64,000 nt of DNA from Fimbriimonadaceae bacterium (GTDB lineage Bacteria > Armatimonadota > Fimbriimonadia > Fimbriimonadales > Fimbriimonadaceae): the NCBI GenBank assembly GCA_019454105.1, contig CP075364.1, forward strand, positions 62,001 through 126,000. Reading direction: 5' to 3'. The position numbers and the translations under genes were made by a program. The notes under the pieces are model-generated. The model was not told the origin of the DNA. It saw only the letters and a program-made list of their open reading frames with translations, and ran no database searches. This document shows, one piece after another, positions 8,091-16,520 of this stretch. How positions within the stretch are numbered: the first letter of the stretch is position 1; the number at the start of each line of letters is the position of its first letter.

Positions 8091-9564
8091 CGAGGTCAGC
8101 GTTGTAGTGCAGGCCAACGTTGGTCTTTCGGGAGCGTGCCCCTTGTACAACATACCGGGCCGCGACCAAGAGGTTGTAAGCTTCGGAAGCGTAGGCCGAG
8201 AACGGTGCGGTAGGGAGCTCGGCGTGTTCGGCTAGGAGTCGTGACACGAAAGCGTCGGCCTGGGCGATCCCAAGGTTGCTTCGGAACACGCCAAGGTTCT
8301 GGCTCATGCAGTTTTGCAGAGCATGCCGGAGCCGGATGGCCTCGTTCTCGGGGACGTTCTTCGGTTGCGAGTAGTCCACGTCTTCGAAATCCGACTGTGG
8401 TTCCTGGCGCACAGCTTCCGCGGCTGCCGTCGAGAAGACAATGGCCTCGAGCAGGCTGTTGCTTGCCAATCGATTGGCGCCGTGCACCCCGGAACTGGCG
8501 ACCTCGCCACTGGCATAGAGCCCGGGCACGGACGACCGCCCGTCCAAGTCTGTCTCGACACCTCCGCACGAATAGTGCTGGGCTGGAGTCACCGGTATCC
8601 ACTCCTTTTCCATCTCGATCCCCCCTGCTCTCAAATGGCTCCAAATGGTGGGGAACTCTTCTCTCAGTCCGTCAGGATCCAGATGGGTGGCGTCGAGATA
8701 CACGCACCAAGTGGCAAGGTGCTTGATCTCCGCCTCGATCGCTCGGGCGACCACGTCTCGAGGAGCGAGTTCGAGCCTCGGATCGTAGTCGTACATGAAC
8801 CTTTGGCCACGATGGTTCCGCAACGTCGCCCCGGCCCCTCTCAAGGCTTCCGTGATCAAGAATCCGCCGATCTGAGGGTGGTAGAGCACGGTCGGGTGGA
8901 ACTGCATGAATTCCATATCGCGGATCGTGGCCCCAACTCGTTCTGCCAGGCCAATTCCGTCTGCGGTAGCGATCCGGGGGTTCGTTGTCCGCGCATAGAT
9001 CTTGCCGGCGCCGCCAGTCGCCAGGAGCACTGCTCGAGCTGAAAATGCACGTAGACCTGCCTCGCCGATCTGGGACGTCAGCCCACAAACTCGGCCGTCA
9101 GACAGCAGGAGCTTGGTGACGAAAGCGTTCTCATAAACAATGATGTTTGGATTGGCCCTGACTGCGCCGCTGACCGCCCTTTCGATTTCCCAGCCGGTGC
9201 GGTCGGCGTGGTGCACGATCCGGTTGCGGCTGTGGCCGGCTTCACGCCCGAGAAACGAGTCGAACCTCGCCCCTTGGCTCCTCAGCCACTCGATGGCCCC
9301 TGGCGCTTCTTGGACTAGCTTTCTGACGGCCGCCGGGTCGCAGACTCCCCCTCCGGCTTGGAGAGTGTCTTCCTCGTGGAGCTGCCAGTCGTCGCTCTCT
9401 CCGACCGCCGCCGCGATCCCCCCCTGGGCCCAGCTCGTGTTCGAGTCGGTGATCGACGCCTTCGTGAGAACGGCGACCCGGCCATGCTCGGACGCTCGTA
9501 TGGCGAATGTCAGTCCGGCGAGGCCGCTCCCAACCACCAAGTAGTCGAAGGCTTCGGCCTTCAT
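8044..9564 (-). CDS. nadB: L-aspartate oxidase (quinolinate synthase subunit B)
   Basis: This FAD enzyme oxidises L-aspartate to iminoaspartate, the first step of de novo NAD synthesis. Its 506 residues fit the family. Features seen in order are an N-terminal FAD-binding Rossmann motif (VVGSGLAGLTFA), the family signature TSWAQGGIAAA, HHADRTGWEIE, MQFHPTVLY, a catalytic-region block RDVVARAIEAE, the HYSCGGVETD segment, and the C-terminal FAD-binding block GLYASGEVASSGVHGANRLA followed by SNSLLEAIVF. It is a lone gene here: no nadA or nadC is adjacent. The 3' end runs into the convergent upstream gene for 47 bp, leaving no room for a conventional terminator. Confidence 0.95.
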   Translation of the reverse strand: MKAEAFDYLVVGSGLAGLTFAIRASEHGRVAVLTKASITDSNTSWAQGGIAAAVGESDDWQLHEEDTLQAGGGVCDPAAVRKLVQEAPGAIEWLRSQGARFDSFLGREAGHSRNRIVHHADRTGWEIERAVSGAVRANPNIIVYENAFVTKLLLSDGRVCGLTSQIGEAGLRAFSARAVLLATGGAGKIYARTTNPRIATADGIGLAERVGATIRDMEFMQFHPTVLYHPQIGGFLITEALRGAGATLRNHRGQRFMYDYDPRLELAPRDVVARAIEAEIKHLATWCVYLDATHLDPDGLREEFPTIWSHLRAGGIEMEKEWIPVTPAQHYSCGGVETDLDGRSSVPGLYASGEVASSGVHGANRLASNSLLEAIVFSTAAAEAVRQEPQSDFEDVDYSQPKNVPENEAIRLRHALQNCMSQNLGVFRSNLGIAQADAFVSRLLAEHAELPTAPFSAYASEAYNLLVAARYVVQGARSRKTNVGLHYNADLVTLSRETEVEPAGPA

Positions 9565-10224
9565 GAGTCGATGTTAGCAGAAGGCCAGTGGGTTCGATCG
9601 ACTTGGGCCGGGAAGCTTCATGAGACTTCGAAGAGTCCGGAGCCCGGTATAGACCTTAGAATTGCTACTCCTTTTTATGTACGGCGGTTTGGGCGGTCAG
9701 AACGGCACGTTTAAGAGTTAGAGAAGAAGCGAATCTTTACGGCGAAGCTGATTCGTCGGTCCAAGGCCGTGACGCGAACCGAGGCTCTGCAAGGAAGAGA
9801 ACGGGACGGCCAAGCTGGACATGCCAACTTGGACGCTCTGGCGAGGCCGTCCGCATCGAATTTGAGCCAAAGACGGGGACCAGTGGAACAGAAGTCCGTT
9901 CCCCAGCGTCTTACCAGCAAGTGGCCAAGGCCACCCACCGGAAACGAGACGAAACCGGGAAACTGAGGGTATCCCGCGCCGAGGAACCAATTGCCTTGGA
10001 ACGGAAACCTTCAAGATACCGGCGGCTCTCAAGGGTTGCAAAATGCAGGTTCCACCTAAGGCGTAAAGGCCGCGGGAGGAAAAGTCCGGCAAATTGTACA
10101 CCGGGAATTGTGTCAGAAACGAGAGAAATTCTCAAAAAATCGGTCCCAAGGTTAAAACACGATTAAGGTGATTGTGTCACAATCCGGATCGGAGCGGCTC
10201 AGTCTGCTGGGCCAGAGTCCCCAT
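9565..10224. other. Gene-free, hairpin-rich region between nadB and the first pilin
   Basis: About 660 bp with no convincing reading frame on either strand. Several perfect or near-perfect inverted repeats lie close together: CGAATC 9730-9735 with GATTCG 9750-9755; GGACGGCC 9804-9811 with GGCCGTCC 9845-9852; CCAAG 9810-9814 with CTTGG 9828-9832; GGAAC 9885-9889 with GTTCC 9898-9902; GTGGCC 9921-9926 with GGCCAC 9929-9934. This density suggests a structured RNA or a long 5' leader of the pilin mRNA, but I could not match it to a known RNA family. Confidence 0.4.
10170..10184. promoter_or_regulatory. Palindromic candidate operator upstream of the first pilin gene
   Basis: GATTGTG-T-CACAATC is a perfect 7-bp inverted repeat with one central base, 40 bp before the pilin start codon. 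Its core ATTGTGTCA also occurs at 10108-10116, 63 bp upstream in the same orientation. A dimeric regulator site is plausible; the regulator is unknown. Confidence 0.35.
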
Positions 10225-11232
<1,008 letters not shown>

Positions 11233-11262
11233 GTCAGGCCCGAGCAGCGACTCGGCCGACCC

Positions 11263-11298
11263 AAGCCAGGCCTCTCGAATCGAGAGGCCTGGCTTTTC
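11263..11298 (+). terminator. Rho-independent terminator of pilin 1
   Basis: A perfect 15-bp stem, AAGCCAGGCCTCTCG (11263-11277) with its complement (11281-11295), closes a 3-nt loop and runs into a short T run. Confidence 0.9.
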
Positions 11299-11426
11299 CA
11301 CTTGTTTTTCAATGCAGGGCCCTCATCGTGAAAATTGCACCCGAAATCGCCCTTCTCTTAACTCCGATTTAATCCTTTGGATCCATCATCGCCGAGGCGC
11401 GGCCCCTCCAGGGCAGGTGTTCACAT

Positions 11427-12443
<1,017 letters not shown>

Positions 12444-12473
12444 CCAAGGCCCGAGCAGCGACTCGGCCGACCC

Positions 12474-12510
12474 AAGCCAGGCCCCCTCTCCAAGGGGGCT
12501 TGGCTTTTTT
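12474..12510 (+). terminator. Rho-independent terminator of pilin 2
   Basis: AGCCA-GGCCCCCT pairs with AGGGGGC-TTGGCT around a short loop, followed by TTTTTT at 12505-12510. Confidence 0.9.
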
Positions 12511-12619
12511 CTGCCTAAAGGCCGAATTCTGGCAAGAACCTGTGTGACCTGGCCCTTCCAGCTTCCGACAATCTTCCTTGGACGGAGCGGCCAAATCGGC
12601 TGTCCGAGAGTGCGGCAAA

Positions 12620-13825
12620 ATGCCCTTTTACGCTTACACGGCCATAGACCGGACTGGGAAGCAAGTCAAGTCCGTCTTCGAAGCTGAGAACGAGGCGATC
12701 GTTCTCAGCCACCTCCGCGAACAGTCGCTTCAGGTTCTTGAGCTCAAGGAGACCAAGAAGCCAGGCTCACGAGCCGTCGGTAAGGCGAAGATGAAGATGA
12801 AGTCGCTTGTCATCTTCTCTCGGCAGTTCGCCACCATGATCGACGCGGGCATTCCAATCTTGAGGTGTCTCGATATTCTCAGTGCCCAGGTCAAGGACCC
12901 TGCACTCAAGCCCGCCGTCGTCCAGGTTCGAGAGGACGTCAAAGGAGGCATGACCCTCAACGAGGCCATGGCCAAGCACCCGAACGTGTTCAACAAGCTC
13001 TACGTGAACATGATTCGGGCCGCCGAACTGGGCGGCATCCTTGACGTCATCCTGGACCGTCTCAGCGGGTTCTTGGAATACGAGGCCGAGGTCAAGGGCA
13101 AGATCAAGAGCGCGATGATGTACCCCGTGCTCGTCCTGTGCTTCTCGCAGCTGATGTTGTTCGTGCTCTTCAGCTTCGTTCTGCCGAAGTTTAAGGACAT
13201 CTTTACCGGCATGGACGTGAAGCTTCCCGCCATGACGGCGATGCTCTTCAACATGGGCGACTTCATGCAAGCCTATTGGTGGGTGATCATCCTCTTGGTC
13301 ATCGGTGCGATCTTTGGCATCAAAGCCTGGGGCAAGACTCCGCAGGGCCGGTATCAACTCGACTTCTTCAAGCTCAAGTTCCCGATCGTGGGCGAACTGA
13401 CGCTCAAGATGAGCGTCGCCCGCTTCTGCCGCACATTCGGGACCTTGATCAACTCGGGCGTGCCGATGATGCGAAGCCTCGAGATCGTTGGTGAGACCCT
13501 GGGCAACCAGGTGCTTGTCGGCGCGATCGACCAGACCCGGGCCAGCATCCGGGACGGGAACAAGCTGAGCGCGCCATTGGCATCGTCAGGGCTCTTTCCG
13601 ACGATGGTCACCCACATGATCGACGTGGGCGAAGAGTCTGGCCGTCTGAGCGAGATGCTCGTCAAGGTCGGCGACTTCTATGACCAAGAGGTGGAATCGA
13701 CTGTCAAGGGTTTGACGTCGATGATCGAGCCAATGCTGATCATCTTCCTCGGATGCGTCGTTGGGTTCATCGCCATTTCGGTAATGACGCCAATCTTCAC
13801 CCTCGTCAACAGCGTCAACAAGTGA
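12620..13825 (+). CDS. pilC: Type IV pilus / type II secretion inner-membrane platform protein, copy 1
   Basis: ATG 12620 (MPFYAYTAIDRTGKQVKS) matches the usual N-terminus of PilC/GspF; the upstream extension to 12578 lacks homology. The 401 residues are typical. Two T2SSF domains are visible (residues about 65-190 and 265-390), each with the pattern FSRQFATMIDAGIPILRCLD or FCRTFGTLINSGVPMMRSLE. Membrane segments lie near residues 165-190, 218-235 and 372-395. The protein anchors the cytoplasmic ATPases and rotates or moves pilin subunits into the fibre. It follows the twin pilins but lies behind a strong terminator, so it is likely transcribed separately. A second copy lies at 32084. Confidence 0.93.
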   Translation: MPFYAYTAIDRTGKQVKSVFEAENEAIVLSHLREQSLQVLELKETKKPGSRAVGKAKMKMKSLVIFSRQFATMIDAGIPILRCLDILSAQVKDPALKPAVVQVREDVKGGMTLNEAMAKHPNVFNKLYVNMIRAAELGGILDVILDRLSGFLEYEAEVKGKIKSAMMYPVLVLCFSQLMLFVLFSFVLPKFKDIFTGMDVKLPAMTAMLFNMGDFMQAYWWVIILLVIGAIFGIKAWGKTPQGRYQLDFFKLKFPIVGELTLKMSVARFCRTFGTLINSGVPMMRSLEIVGETLGNQVLVGAIDQTRASIRDGNKLSAPLASSGLFPTMVTHMIDVGEESGRLSEMLVKVGDFYDQEVESTVKGLTSMIEPMLIIFLGCVVGFIAISVMTPIFTLVNSVNK

Positions 13826-13831
13826 CCACGT

Positions 13832-13856
13832 GTCCGCCGGGCCCTCCCCGGCGGAC
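13832..13856 (+). terminator. Terminator-like hairpin after pilC copy 1
   Basis: GTCCGCCGGG (13832-13841) and CCCGGCGGAC (13847-13856) form a perfect 10-bp stem 6 nt after the stop codon. No U-tract follows, so read-through into the sigma-factor gene is possible. Confidence 0.65.
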
Positions 13857-13929
13857 CTCTGACCAGAAACACTCCGGCAACCAGGATGGTGGTCCGGACC
13901 GACCAGAAACCAATTTCGATCGGAACTCT

Positions 13930-15201
13930 ATGGAAGGACAAACCTCAGAGGCTCAGTCGCTTCGGCGCGACCTGGAGTCGCTAGTAGCCGAATATGCGCT
14001 GGATCCACAGCCTGACGTCAAGGATCTCATCATCGTCCAGTGCTCAGGGATCGTCGAGCGCATGGCGCGAAGGTTCAGCGGAGTCGAACCCTTCGAGGAC
14101 TTGGCCCAGGTCGGCTATATTGGACTCCTCAACGCTCTCAGTAAGTTCGACCCGCAGGCGGGAGTCAAGTTCGCGACTTACGCGACCCACCTTGTGGCGG
14201 GAGAGATCAAGCACTACCTCCGAGACAAGTCTCAGATGATCCGGCACCCAGCTTGGATCCAAGAGATGCGGCACAGGCTGACCAAGGCTGCGACGGCCCT
14301 TCAGGCAGAACTCGGACGAGCCCCAACGGAACGAGAGATCGCGGAGGCTTGCAAGGTGAGCGAGCACTCGGTGCGGGAAGTCCTCGCCACACAAGAGCTT
14401 CTCCGAGTCGCATCGCTTGACGCCCCGATTCAAGAGGACGATGAGGACAGCGACCTGGACAAGCTCGAAGGGGGATCGGCCCAGCACTTGTCGGTCGAGG
14501 ATCGGGTCGTGTTGGAGCAAGCGATCCGACAGCTGCGAGACTTGGAGCAAGAAGTGCTCGTCCTGTTCCACTTTGAGGCCCTGAGCCAAACCGAGATCGC
14601 CGACCGATTAAACATATCTTGCAACTATGTGTCCCACATTCTCCGTCAATCCCTTTCGAAACTTCGGCGCATTTTTGACGAGCACGAAGAGGCTGAGCTG
14701 AGTCTGCGGTCGCCACAAGAGGATCTGAAAAAGATCCTCGATCCGGAGACCAGGGCTTATTCTGAAACCTACTTCTGCGGGAGGTTGAAGGAAGAACTCC
14801 ACCGAATTGCGAGCCAGGGCGGCGAGTTGGCCGTGGTCATCGTCCGGTTTGGCGGCCTCGAAGGCTTGAAGGAGTTCTATGGAGACCGGAGCGTGCGCGA
14901 CTTCATGTATGACGCGGCCGAGTTCTTGCGGTCGTCCGTGCGTTCGCTCGACATCGTTGGCCGATATGGACCGAACGGGTTCGGCGTCATCTTGACCTCG
15001 TCAGCCGGGAACGCGGGCATCGCTCGAGCCAGGCTCCAACAAAGATTTGACCGATGGGTGCTCGGCCGGGTGGTCCCAGGGGGCACGCTGACCTGCCAAC
15101 TTGGACAGGCCGAAGCTCCAGAGGCAGGACTTGAAGCGAGCCAACTCCTAGCGGTCGCCGACCCGGGCCAAACGCCTCAAACAAACCAATTGGCCGCTTG
15201 A
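13930..15201 (+). CDS. Sigma-70 family factor (SigB/SigF/WhiG-like) fused to a degenerate GGDEF domain
   Basis: ATG 13930 (MEGQTSEAQSLRRDLES) is chosen because the longer frame starts inside pilC. The protein has 423 residues. Residues about 25-110 form sigma region 2 (DLAQVGYIGLLNALSKFD, FATYATHLVAGEIKHYLRD). Region 3 follows (ELGRAPTEREIAEACKVSE), then region 4 (LSQTEIADRLNISCNYVSHI) to about residue 255. From residue 271 (DPETRAYSETYF) the sequence follows the GGDEF fold: AVVIVRFGGLEGLKEFYGD, then R338-S-L-D341 and R345-Y-G-P-N-G-F. The active-site GG(D/E)EF is replaced by GPNGF, so cyclase activity is unlikely. The RxxD product-binding motif is kept at canonical spacing. The expected role is promoter selection controlled by c-di-GMP or another ligand; the ligand is inference. 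Confidence 0.85.
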   Translation: MEGQTSEAQSLRRDLESLVAEYALDPQPDVKDLIIVQCSGIVERMARRFSGVEPFEDLAQVGYIGLLNALSKFDPQAGVKFATYATHLVAGEIKHYLRDKSQMIRHPAWIQEMRHRLTKAATALQAELGRAPTEREIAEACKVSEHSVREVLATQELLRVASLDAPIQEDDEDSDLDKLEGGSAQHLSVEDRVVLEQAIRQLRDLEQEVLVLFHFEALSQTEIADRLNISCNYVSHILRQSLSKLRRIFDEHEEAELSLRSPQEDLKKILDPETRAYSETYFCGRLKEELHRIASQGGELAVVIVRFGGLEGLKEFYGDRSVRDFMYDAAEFLRSSVRSLDIVGRYGPNGFGVILTSSAGNAGIARARLQQRFDRWVLGRVVPGGTLTCQLGQAEAPEAGLEASQLLAVADPGQTPQTNQLAA

Positions 15202-15249
15202 CCTTCCGACCGGGGTCTCAGGAACCAGAATGACTCCCGGAGTCTAGAC

Positions 15250-15855
15250 TTGGACATGTCGACGACGATCGTGGTCGCCCACGATTTCACCTGTCCCTGG
15301 TGCTGGATCGGTTGGCACCAGGCCGAGCGGCTGAGGGCCGAATTTGAGGTGAAGATCGAGTGGGCCGGGTACGAGCTGATGCCGGAGAACCTGCCTTGGC
15401 CGGCTCCTGGCCCTCAGATCCCTTCTGACCCGCGTCGTCCGATCACTCCAAGCCGCCTCGAGCTCGCCTATGCGGCCGAAGACCTGGACCGTCCTCATGC
15501 CACCAGGCCGAAGAACATGCGGACTCACAACGCGCTGGAGGCCGTCGAGCATCTGAAGCAAGAAGGGTTCGCCCACGAGTTCGTCGGAAGGATGTACCGA
15601 GCCTATTGGACACAAGGGCAGGAGATCGATGCACTGGACGTGATCGAGGAACTGGCAGCAGGGCTCACGGAAGATTGGGCCGCCATGAGGTCGGCCATTG
15701 AGTCCAGGAAGTACGCGGACAAGATCGTCCCGTTCGACGATGACGCCTATGCGGCCGGAGTATTCAATGTGCCGACCTTCTTCATTGGTGAGGCACGGTT
15801 GGCCGAGCAACCGTACCGGACAATCGCCCGGGCTGTCGCCAGGTGGCTGACTTGA
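15250..15855 (+). CDS. DsbA-family (FrnE-like) thioredoxin-fold oxidoreductase
   Basis: The product has about 201 residues with the redox motif CPWC at the N-terminus (VAHDFTCPWCWIGWHQAERL). A helical insertion domain and the late cis-Pro region (GVFNVPTFFIGEARL) are typical of the DsbA/FrnE family. TTG 15250 is preferred because GGAG lies 7 nt upstream; ATG 15256 is an alternative two codons on. No signal peptide is present, so this is a cytoplasmic member, comparable to FrnE-like disulfide isomerases or 2-hydroxychromene-2-carboxylate isomerase relatives. Its stop overlaps the start of the next gene by 13 nt, indicating translational coupling with the reductase downstream. Confidence 0.85.
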   Translation: MDMSTTIVVAHDFTCPWCWIGWHQAERLRAEFEVKIEWAGYELMPENLPWPAPGPQIPSDPRRPITPSRLELAYAAEDLDRPHATRPKNMRTHNALEAVEHLKQEGFAHEFVGRMYRAYWTQGQEIDALDVIEELAAGLTEDWAAMRSAIESRKYADKIVPFDDDAYAAGVFNVPTFFIGEARLAEQPYRTIARAVARWLT

Positions 15856-16520
15856 GCGTTTATGACCGACTGGACTTTCCAGTTAGCCCCGAGGGCAGAC
15901 CCTGGGTCTTCATCAACATGGTGGCGACCATCGACGGCAAGATCCTCTCTGGTGAACGGGACGAGAACGTTATGGACCTGGGAAGCCCGACCGATCATGC
16001 GACGATGAGGTTTATCGAGTCCCAGGCTGACGCGGTCATGATCGGAGCTGGCTCGTTGCGGGCGACGGTCGGCCTGCACTACCCAGAGAGGCTGAAGAGG
16101 CTGGTCGTCAGCGCGTCGGGCACGCTGGACTTCAGTTCGAAGTTCTTCACGGGAGCTCCGGACAAGGCCTGGGTCGTGACAGGGTCTCGAGGAGTCGAAG
16201 GAGTCGCCGGAAGGGCCCAGACGTTCGATGCAGGCGAGCCGGTTCAGTGGCGCCGAGTCTTGGCGTGGCTCCACGGGCTGGGGGTCGAGAGACTCCTCAT
16301 AGAAGGCGGCAGCGAGCTGAATGCGGCCCTGTTGGCCGAGGACTTGGTCGACGAGCTCTTCTTGACGGTGGCGCCCAAAGTCAAGCTGGGGAGCGGTATC
16401 CCGACTTACGCCGGGGGACAGCCCTTGCCGAGAGAGGGCCTTCTCAGATTCAGCCTCATGAGCTGCTTGACCCATGATGACGAGGTCTTCCTTCGCTATC
16501 GGCGGACTGCCCGATCCTGA
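15843..16520 (+). CDS. RibD C-terminal-type reductase (dihydrofolate-reductase-like fold)
   Basis: GTG 15843 starts a 225-residue protein overlapping the preceding gene by 13 nt. The pattern WVFINMVATIDGKILSGERD, then DHATMRFIESQADAVMIGAG, VERLLIEGGSELNAALLAED and LVDELFLTVAPK is that of the RibD_C NADPH-dependent pyrimidine reductase family. There is no deaminase domain and no rib operon nearby. It may be a stand-alone riboflavin-pathway reductase or a related family member acting on another substrate. Confidence 0.85.
   Translation: MADLSVYDRLDFPVSPEGRPWVFINMVATIDGKILSGERDENVMDLGSPTDHATMRFIESQADAVMIGAGSLRATVGLHYPERLKRLVVSASGTLDFSSKFFTGAPDKAWVVTGSRGVEGVAGRAQTFDAGEPVQWRRVLAWLHGLGVERLLIEGGSELNAALLAEDLVDELFLTVAPKVKLGSGIPTYAGGQPLPREGLLRFSLMSCLTHDDEVFLRYRRTARS

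Follow-up and report, generated by a model that had tools for sequence, protein, structure and literature searches.

A sigma factor of Armatimonadota fused to a degenerate GGDEF domain with a retained I-site: a candidate c-di-GMP receptor encoded next to pilC

The DNA analyzed here, referred to as the window, is a stretch of 64,000 nucleotides from a Fimbriimonadaceae bacterium (GCA_019454105.1, contig CP075364.1, positions 62,001-126,000 of the forward strand), and all coordinates are counted from its first letter (Table 1). One open reading frame of 423 residues encodes, according to Pfam, the regions Sigma70_r2 (residues 41-101), Sigma70_r3 (114-180) and Sigma70_r4 (198-246), in this order and all above cut-off, followed by a GGDEF domain (PF00990, residues 270-411) that scores 43.3 bits against a cut-off of 23.8. 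This is the arrangement put forward in the original prediction, namely sigma regions 2-4 and then a GGDEF-type fold. The location of the gene just after a copy of pilC was also recognized correctly at that stage, as NCBIfam assigns the upstream neighbor to this family. The open reading frame call for pilC begins at 12578, while its conserved start is the ATG at 12620. Directly before pilC there are two tandem prepilin-like genes with near-identical N-termini (10168-11232 and 11427-12443, plus strand), which probably go back to a duplication.

Table 1. Positions of the features of the sigma-GGDEF gene and the DNA upstream of it.
Feature	Position in window	Strand	Basis
FliA/WhiG-type promoter element of the pilC-sigma unit, conserved	12541..12584	+	core CCGACAAT at 12565-12572
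pilC, type IV pilus platform protein, probably one transcription unit with the sigma gene	12620..13825	+	NCBIfam
Sigma-70 factor fused to degenerate GGDEF domain, 423 aa	13930..15201	+	translation from ATG 13930, Pfam, full-length orthologues
Sigma-70 regions 2, 3 and 4, SigB/SigF-like group 3, residues ~1-246	13930..14667	+	Pfam and subfamily models
Degenerate GGDEF domain, residues ~262-412	14713..15165	+	Pfam, AlphaFold, Foldseek
Codon of R292, matching R313 of PleD (I-site arginine supplied by the partner domain)	14803..14805	+	R in 96/97 orthologues
I-site R338-S-L-D341 (RxxD)	14941..14952	+	both residues kept in 97/97 orthologues
Degenerate active site GPNGF, residues 347-351	14968..14982	+	no orthologue (0/97) has an intact GG(D/E)EF
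Codon of R368, matching R390 of PleD (primary I-site)	15031..15033	+	R in 92/97 orthologues
C-terminal Ala-Ala, candidate ClpXP-type C-degron	15193..15198	+	86/97 orthologues end in AA

The sigma part finds its top subfamily match in the SigB/SigF/SigG model TIGR02980 at 182.7 bits, below the cut-off of 234.35, and its second-best family match in the SigF model PRK07408 at 160 bits; the sigma-GGDEF protein is a divergent branch next to the TIGR02980 subfamily. Its score with the FliA/WhiG model TIGR02479 is about 121.5-123.4 bits, under the cut-off of 189.6, and an identity as WhiG was ruled out on this ground. Cyanobacterial SigF, the subject of the second-best model, is likewise a group-3 sigma factor for pilin transcription, driving that of pilA (PMC7690835), but its family model contains no GGDEF domain and it has no known link to c-di-GMP.

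Structure prediction of the C-terminal domain yields the GGDEF fold that had been expected from the sequence. The AlphaFold model, based on 83 aligned sequences, has a pLDDT of 92.2 and a pTM of 0.86, and the top matches in a Foldseek search of the PDB are GGDEF proteins, among them 4urs (rank 1), 4urg, 3ign, PleD and 5euh. The TM-scores to GGDEF structures are mostly 0.65-0.8, and several of the matched structures have c-di-GMP bound. In the model of the full-length protein the sigma and GGDEF parts are each well folded, with their mutual placement undefined (pTM 0.49).

The I-site of PleD is composed of R359, D362 and R390 of one domain together with R313 of the partner domain (PMC7288161). 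Equivalents of all four residues are present in the sigma-GGDEF protein, and the distance from the RxxD motif to the first glycine, which had been described as that of PleD-type proteins, is indeed the same, as D341 lies six positions ahead of G347 and D362 of PleD six ahead of G368. R292 was matched to R313 because it stands 14 residues ahead of the metal-Asp position in an ungapped alignment to 3ign. For the I-site and the catalytic motif we counted over the 97 orthologues that reach the motif; at locus L133 the orthologue can be read to about residue 332 and stops before the I-site, because the gene is truly truncated or because the sequence contains an error. Both R338 and D341 are retained in every orthologue counted and are the sole invariant columns of the domain in our alignment A2 of 83 C-terminal domains. 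The active site, on the other hand, had been reported as a broken RYGPNGF, and the GPNGF sequence holds for the gene just as the loss of GG(D/E)EF holds for all orthologues. An active diguanylate cyclase would carry GG(D/E)EF and the metal- and guanine-binding residues, and with the catalytic motif absent this identity was ruled out. The least decayed active site, GGGTF, is seen at locus L116, which is possibly near the ancestral fusion. In summary, the domain shares its fold and four I-site residues with PleD and other diguanylate cyclases under I-site feedback, but differs from them in having no catalytic site and in being joined to a sigma factor.

If the old active site were still in use, the domain might sense GTP or another nucleotide there, as some degenerate GGDEF domains are known to bind GTP (PMC7288161). 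We consider this very improbable, given that the positions of the metal-binding aspartate, the guanine-contacting asparagine and the GGDEF loop are variable or randomized across the orthologues. Another possibility is that the RxxD motif reflects mere ancestry in a decaying leftover domain that has no ligand. The presence of RxxD alone is indeed weak evidence, because 33 of the 35 intact GGDEF motifs in the same genomes are accompanied by it; however, the identity of the C-terminal domain drops to 20-30% across the phylum and the catalytic positions are randomized while R338 and D341 are kept throughout, which makes a decaying leftover scarcely credible. As judged from this count of intact motifs, RxxD is an ancestral trait, and the informative part is its perfect retention during catalytic decay, not its presence.

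Such retention is not demanded by the fold. Five other GGDEF domains, all with intact motifs, are encoded in the same genome, and two of them have no RxxD; moreover, in Campylobacterota the motif has disappeared from degenerate GGDEF domains (PMC9239204), so that the I-site is dispensable for folding. Could the domain instead be a docking platform, for example for a diguanylate cyclase or for the pilus machinery, with RxxD kept as part of the interface? The residues R285, E288, E289 and R292 are nearly invariant among orthologues and may form a conserved surface for a partner. We regard docking as unlikely, since all four I-site residues, including the arginine contributed by the partner domain, are retained together, and since RxxD is lost where it is not needed, both in this genome and elsewhere. 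The five domains with intact motifs also imply that c-di-GMP is probably made in the cell. Together with the fold and the complete I-site, this makes c-di-GMP the likely ligand. The features of an I-site receptor similar to PopA (RxxD, the equivalents of R390 and R313, and a degenerate GGDEF motif) are all found in the sequence, and the comparison gives good support to the C-terminal domain being a c-di-GMP receptor, with its I-site preserved and its A-site drifting.

The fusion is widespread. It was found at full length in 58 of 61 relatives and in most of the 113 genomes searched within the class, and full-length orthologues exist in many other families of Armatimonadota as well. In a scan of named records, for which an alignment query found fusions and a single-protein query gave no match, nearly all of the 80 records with the fusion are titled Armatimonadota or one of its subgroups (Fimbriimonadaceae, Chthonomonas and others), and the remaining titles are a few that read only “bacterium” and one “archaeon”. 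The loci of these records largely overlap the first set of orthologues and are not independent evidence. Locus L391, titled Methanoregulaceae archaeon, has the fusion at 54% identity and is most likely a mis-binned Armatimonadota contig. Because some families of Armatimonadota have only a stand-alone sigma factor of the same kind, the fusion was probably made within this phylum.

A further conserved element, missed by the original prediction, is the C-terminus of the protein. Besides the 86 orthologues that end in Ala-Ala, four more end in Val-Ala, while among 435 other proteins of the same loci only 9 (2.1%) have an Ala-Ala end. The tail beyond residue 411 is 6 to 47 residues long, its linker is unalignable, and the residues at -10 to -3 before the Ala-Ala show no conservation (8% identity). 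Given this variable, unconserved linker and the kept end, only the final two residues seem to be under selection. Substrates of ClpXP, such as ssrA-tagged proteins, are marked by a free Ala-Ala at the C-terminus. The protein thus carries the terminal Ala-Ala or Val-Ala expected of a ClpXP C-degron, and its tail looks like a candidate degron of this type, which brings in proteolysis as a possible output.

In Caulobacter, PopA, an effector of the GGDEF family, must bind c-di-GMP to deliver CtrA to ClpXP (PMC7526171), and the degron of CtrA is listed as DPNEQVNAA, likewise ending in Ala-Ala (PMC8138137). PopA works in trans through RcdA, whereas here the receptor, the regulator and the putative degron are one polypeptide, as if a PopA-type receptor had been joined to its own target. 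One may tentatively go further and take proteolysis as the main output, with c-di-GMP at the I-site timing the delivery of the Ala-Ala end to ClpXP as a PopA/CtrA system in cis. This overlaps with our preferred explanation given below and differs from it by denying direct gating of sigma activity. The frequency of the Ala-Ala end behind an otherwise random linker and the PopA precedent speak for it. Against it, some orthologues from other families (L115, L116, L117 and L121) have no Ala-Ala end and keep the I-site; proteolysis may thus not be universal, and the I-site is a more general feature than the tail.

Of 98 sigma-GGDEF loci, 71 have pilC as the immediate upstream neighbor on the same strand, usually less than 200 bp away, and four of the loci without it are explained by contig edges or a mis-set start. 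In several families the gene order is two PilB/PilT-type ATPase genes, pilC and the sigma gene. In genus g8, open frames of 871-884 residues suggested an in-frame PilC-sigma fusion, which was ruled out as the true pilC lies in another frame. In one genus, the orthologue of pilC1 is present in all 10 genomes with the sigma gene and absent from all 8 without it (Fisher p = 2e-5, uncorrected for kinship). From this linkage and co-loss, the regulon of the sigma-GGDEF protein is probably tied to type IV pili.

The promoter element of the pilC-sigma unit has a matrix score of 21.6, with the runner-up in the window at 12.5, and a weaker -35 element is located about 15 bp upstream of the CCGACAAT core. 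With at most one mismatch this core occurs in 28 of 35 regions upstream of pilC, compared to a mean of 3.7 and a maximum of 7 in shuffles. By its sequence, the promoter resembles the FliA/WhiG promoter TAAA-N15-GCCGATAA. Several families that have no pilC before the sigma gene show the same element 80-160 bp upstream of the sigma gene, and in family f19 TAAA-N15-GCCGATAA itself is found within this distance; an exact core at this place was found at none of the 73 loci with pilC upstream. Because the genome encodes a true FliA/WhiG factor (239.7 bits) and flagellins, it is likely that the flagellar sigma factor stands above the sigma-GGDEF protein in a cascade. The unit may also be autoregulated; the FliA encoded in this genome is more likely to read the promoter, since the promoter is FliA/WhiG-like and the profile of the sigma part SigB/SigF-like. 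A similar core is seen in only some of the flagellin upstream regions, which served as FliA promoter reference, and a genome-wide search for the regulon by promoter motif defined none, as the patterns were too loose or noisy. The type strain of F. ginsengisoli is non-motile (PMC4072686).

Downstream of the promoter element there is a GC-rich, possible hairpin leader, and a search of positions 9500-16000 with Rfam for riboswitches and known leader RNAs returned sub-threshold matches only. In other genomes (G009, G014, G024, G029, G147 and G171) a FliA/WhiG gene is located about 3-12 kb from the sigma-GGDEF gene, and in the genome studied here none lies within this range. At locus L062 of the genome studied here (around C1:1732150, minus strand) a promoter-like GCCGATAAT with a matrix score of 16.4 lies some 35 nt ahead of the start of the gene for an active GGDEF protein, which recalls the WhiG targets of Rubrobacter and may be chance.

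Our preferred explanation, with an estimated probability of about 0.62, is a one-component sigma factor with an in-cis c-di-GMP receptor, whose activity or lifetime is set at the I-site and which is tied to type IV pili. A SigB/SigF-like sigma factor would have gained a GGDEF domain that then lost catalysis and kept the four-residue I-site (R338, D341, R368 and R292 of the partner). By analogy with product inhibition of PleD, intercalated c-di-GMP dimers would cross-link two C-terminal domains, which could hide the surfaces that bind RNA polymerase, present the Ala-Ala tail to a Clp protease, or both. The sigma factor might thereby be inhibited, activated or changed in its stability, and the tail argues for stability as a part of the outcome. 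In this way c-di-GMP would determine how active, or how long-lived, the sigma factor produced alongside pilC is, and would join the motile/sessile decision to the pilus genes. The interpretation given in the original prediction is supported in part: its receptor component stands by comparison, through the I-site kept beside a drifting A-site, and direct gating of the sigma factor by c-di-GMP, with no anti-sigma factor involved, is plausible.

Among the closest known systems is RsiG-WhiG, according to a 2021 study the sole sigma/anti-sigma complex known to be targeted by c-di-GMP (PMC8325347). There, too, a group-3 sigma factor is the target of c-di-GMP, which in Rubrobacter controls a sigma factor of type IV pili via RsiG (PMC8325347). 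The sensor of that system, however, is a separate coiled-coil anti-sigma factor with its own c-di-GMP motif, whereas the candidate sensor here is the fused GGDEF I-site. A bolder version of our explanation, which we find doubtful as a whole, would make these proteins a class of sigma factors, spread across the phylum, each of which is a c-di-GMP receptor in its own right: cross-linking of the degenerate GGDEF domains by (c-di-GMP)2 would switch both the promoter use of a molecule and its ClpXP-type degradation, so that the logics of WhiG-RsiG and PopA-CtrA would meet in one protein, placed in a cascade that leads from the flagellar sigma factor down to type IV pili. In the open-access literature searched, with most subscription journals outside its scope, there is no description of a fusion between a sigma factor and a GGDEF domain.

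If the explanation is true, no path from a second messenger to promoter choice would be shorter than a sigma factor that carries its own I-site receptor, and this direct route would be conserved across a poorly studied phylum. It would also show clearly, with the evolutionary trace preserved, how an enzyme domain has become a receptor. For the bacteria themselves, one self-sensing protein may control an entire programme of genes, which is probably related to type IV pili.
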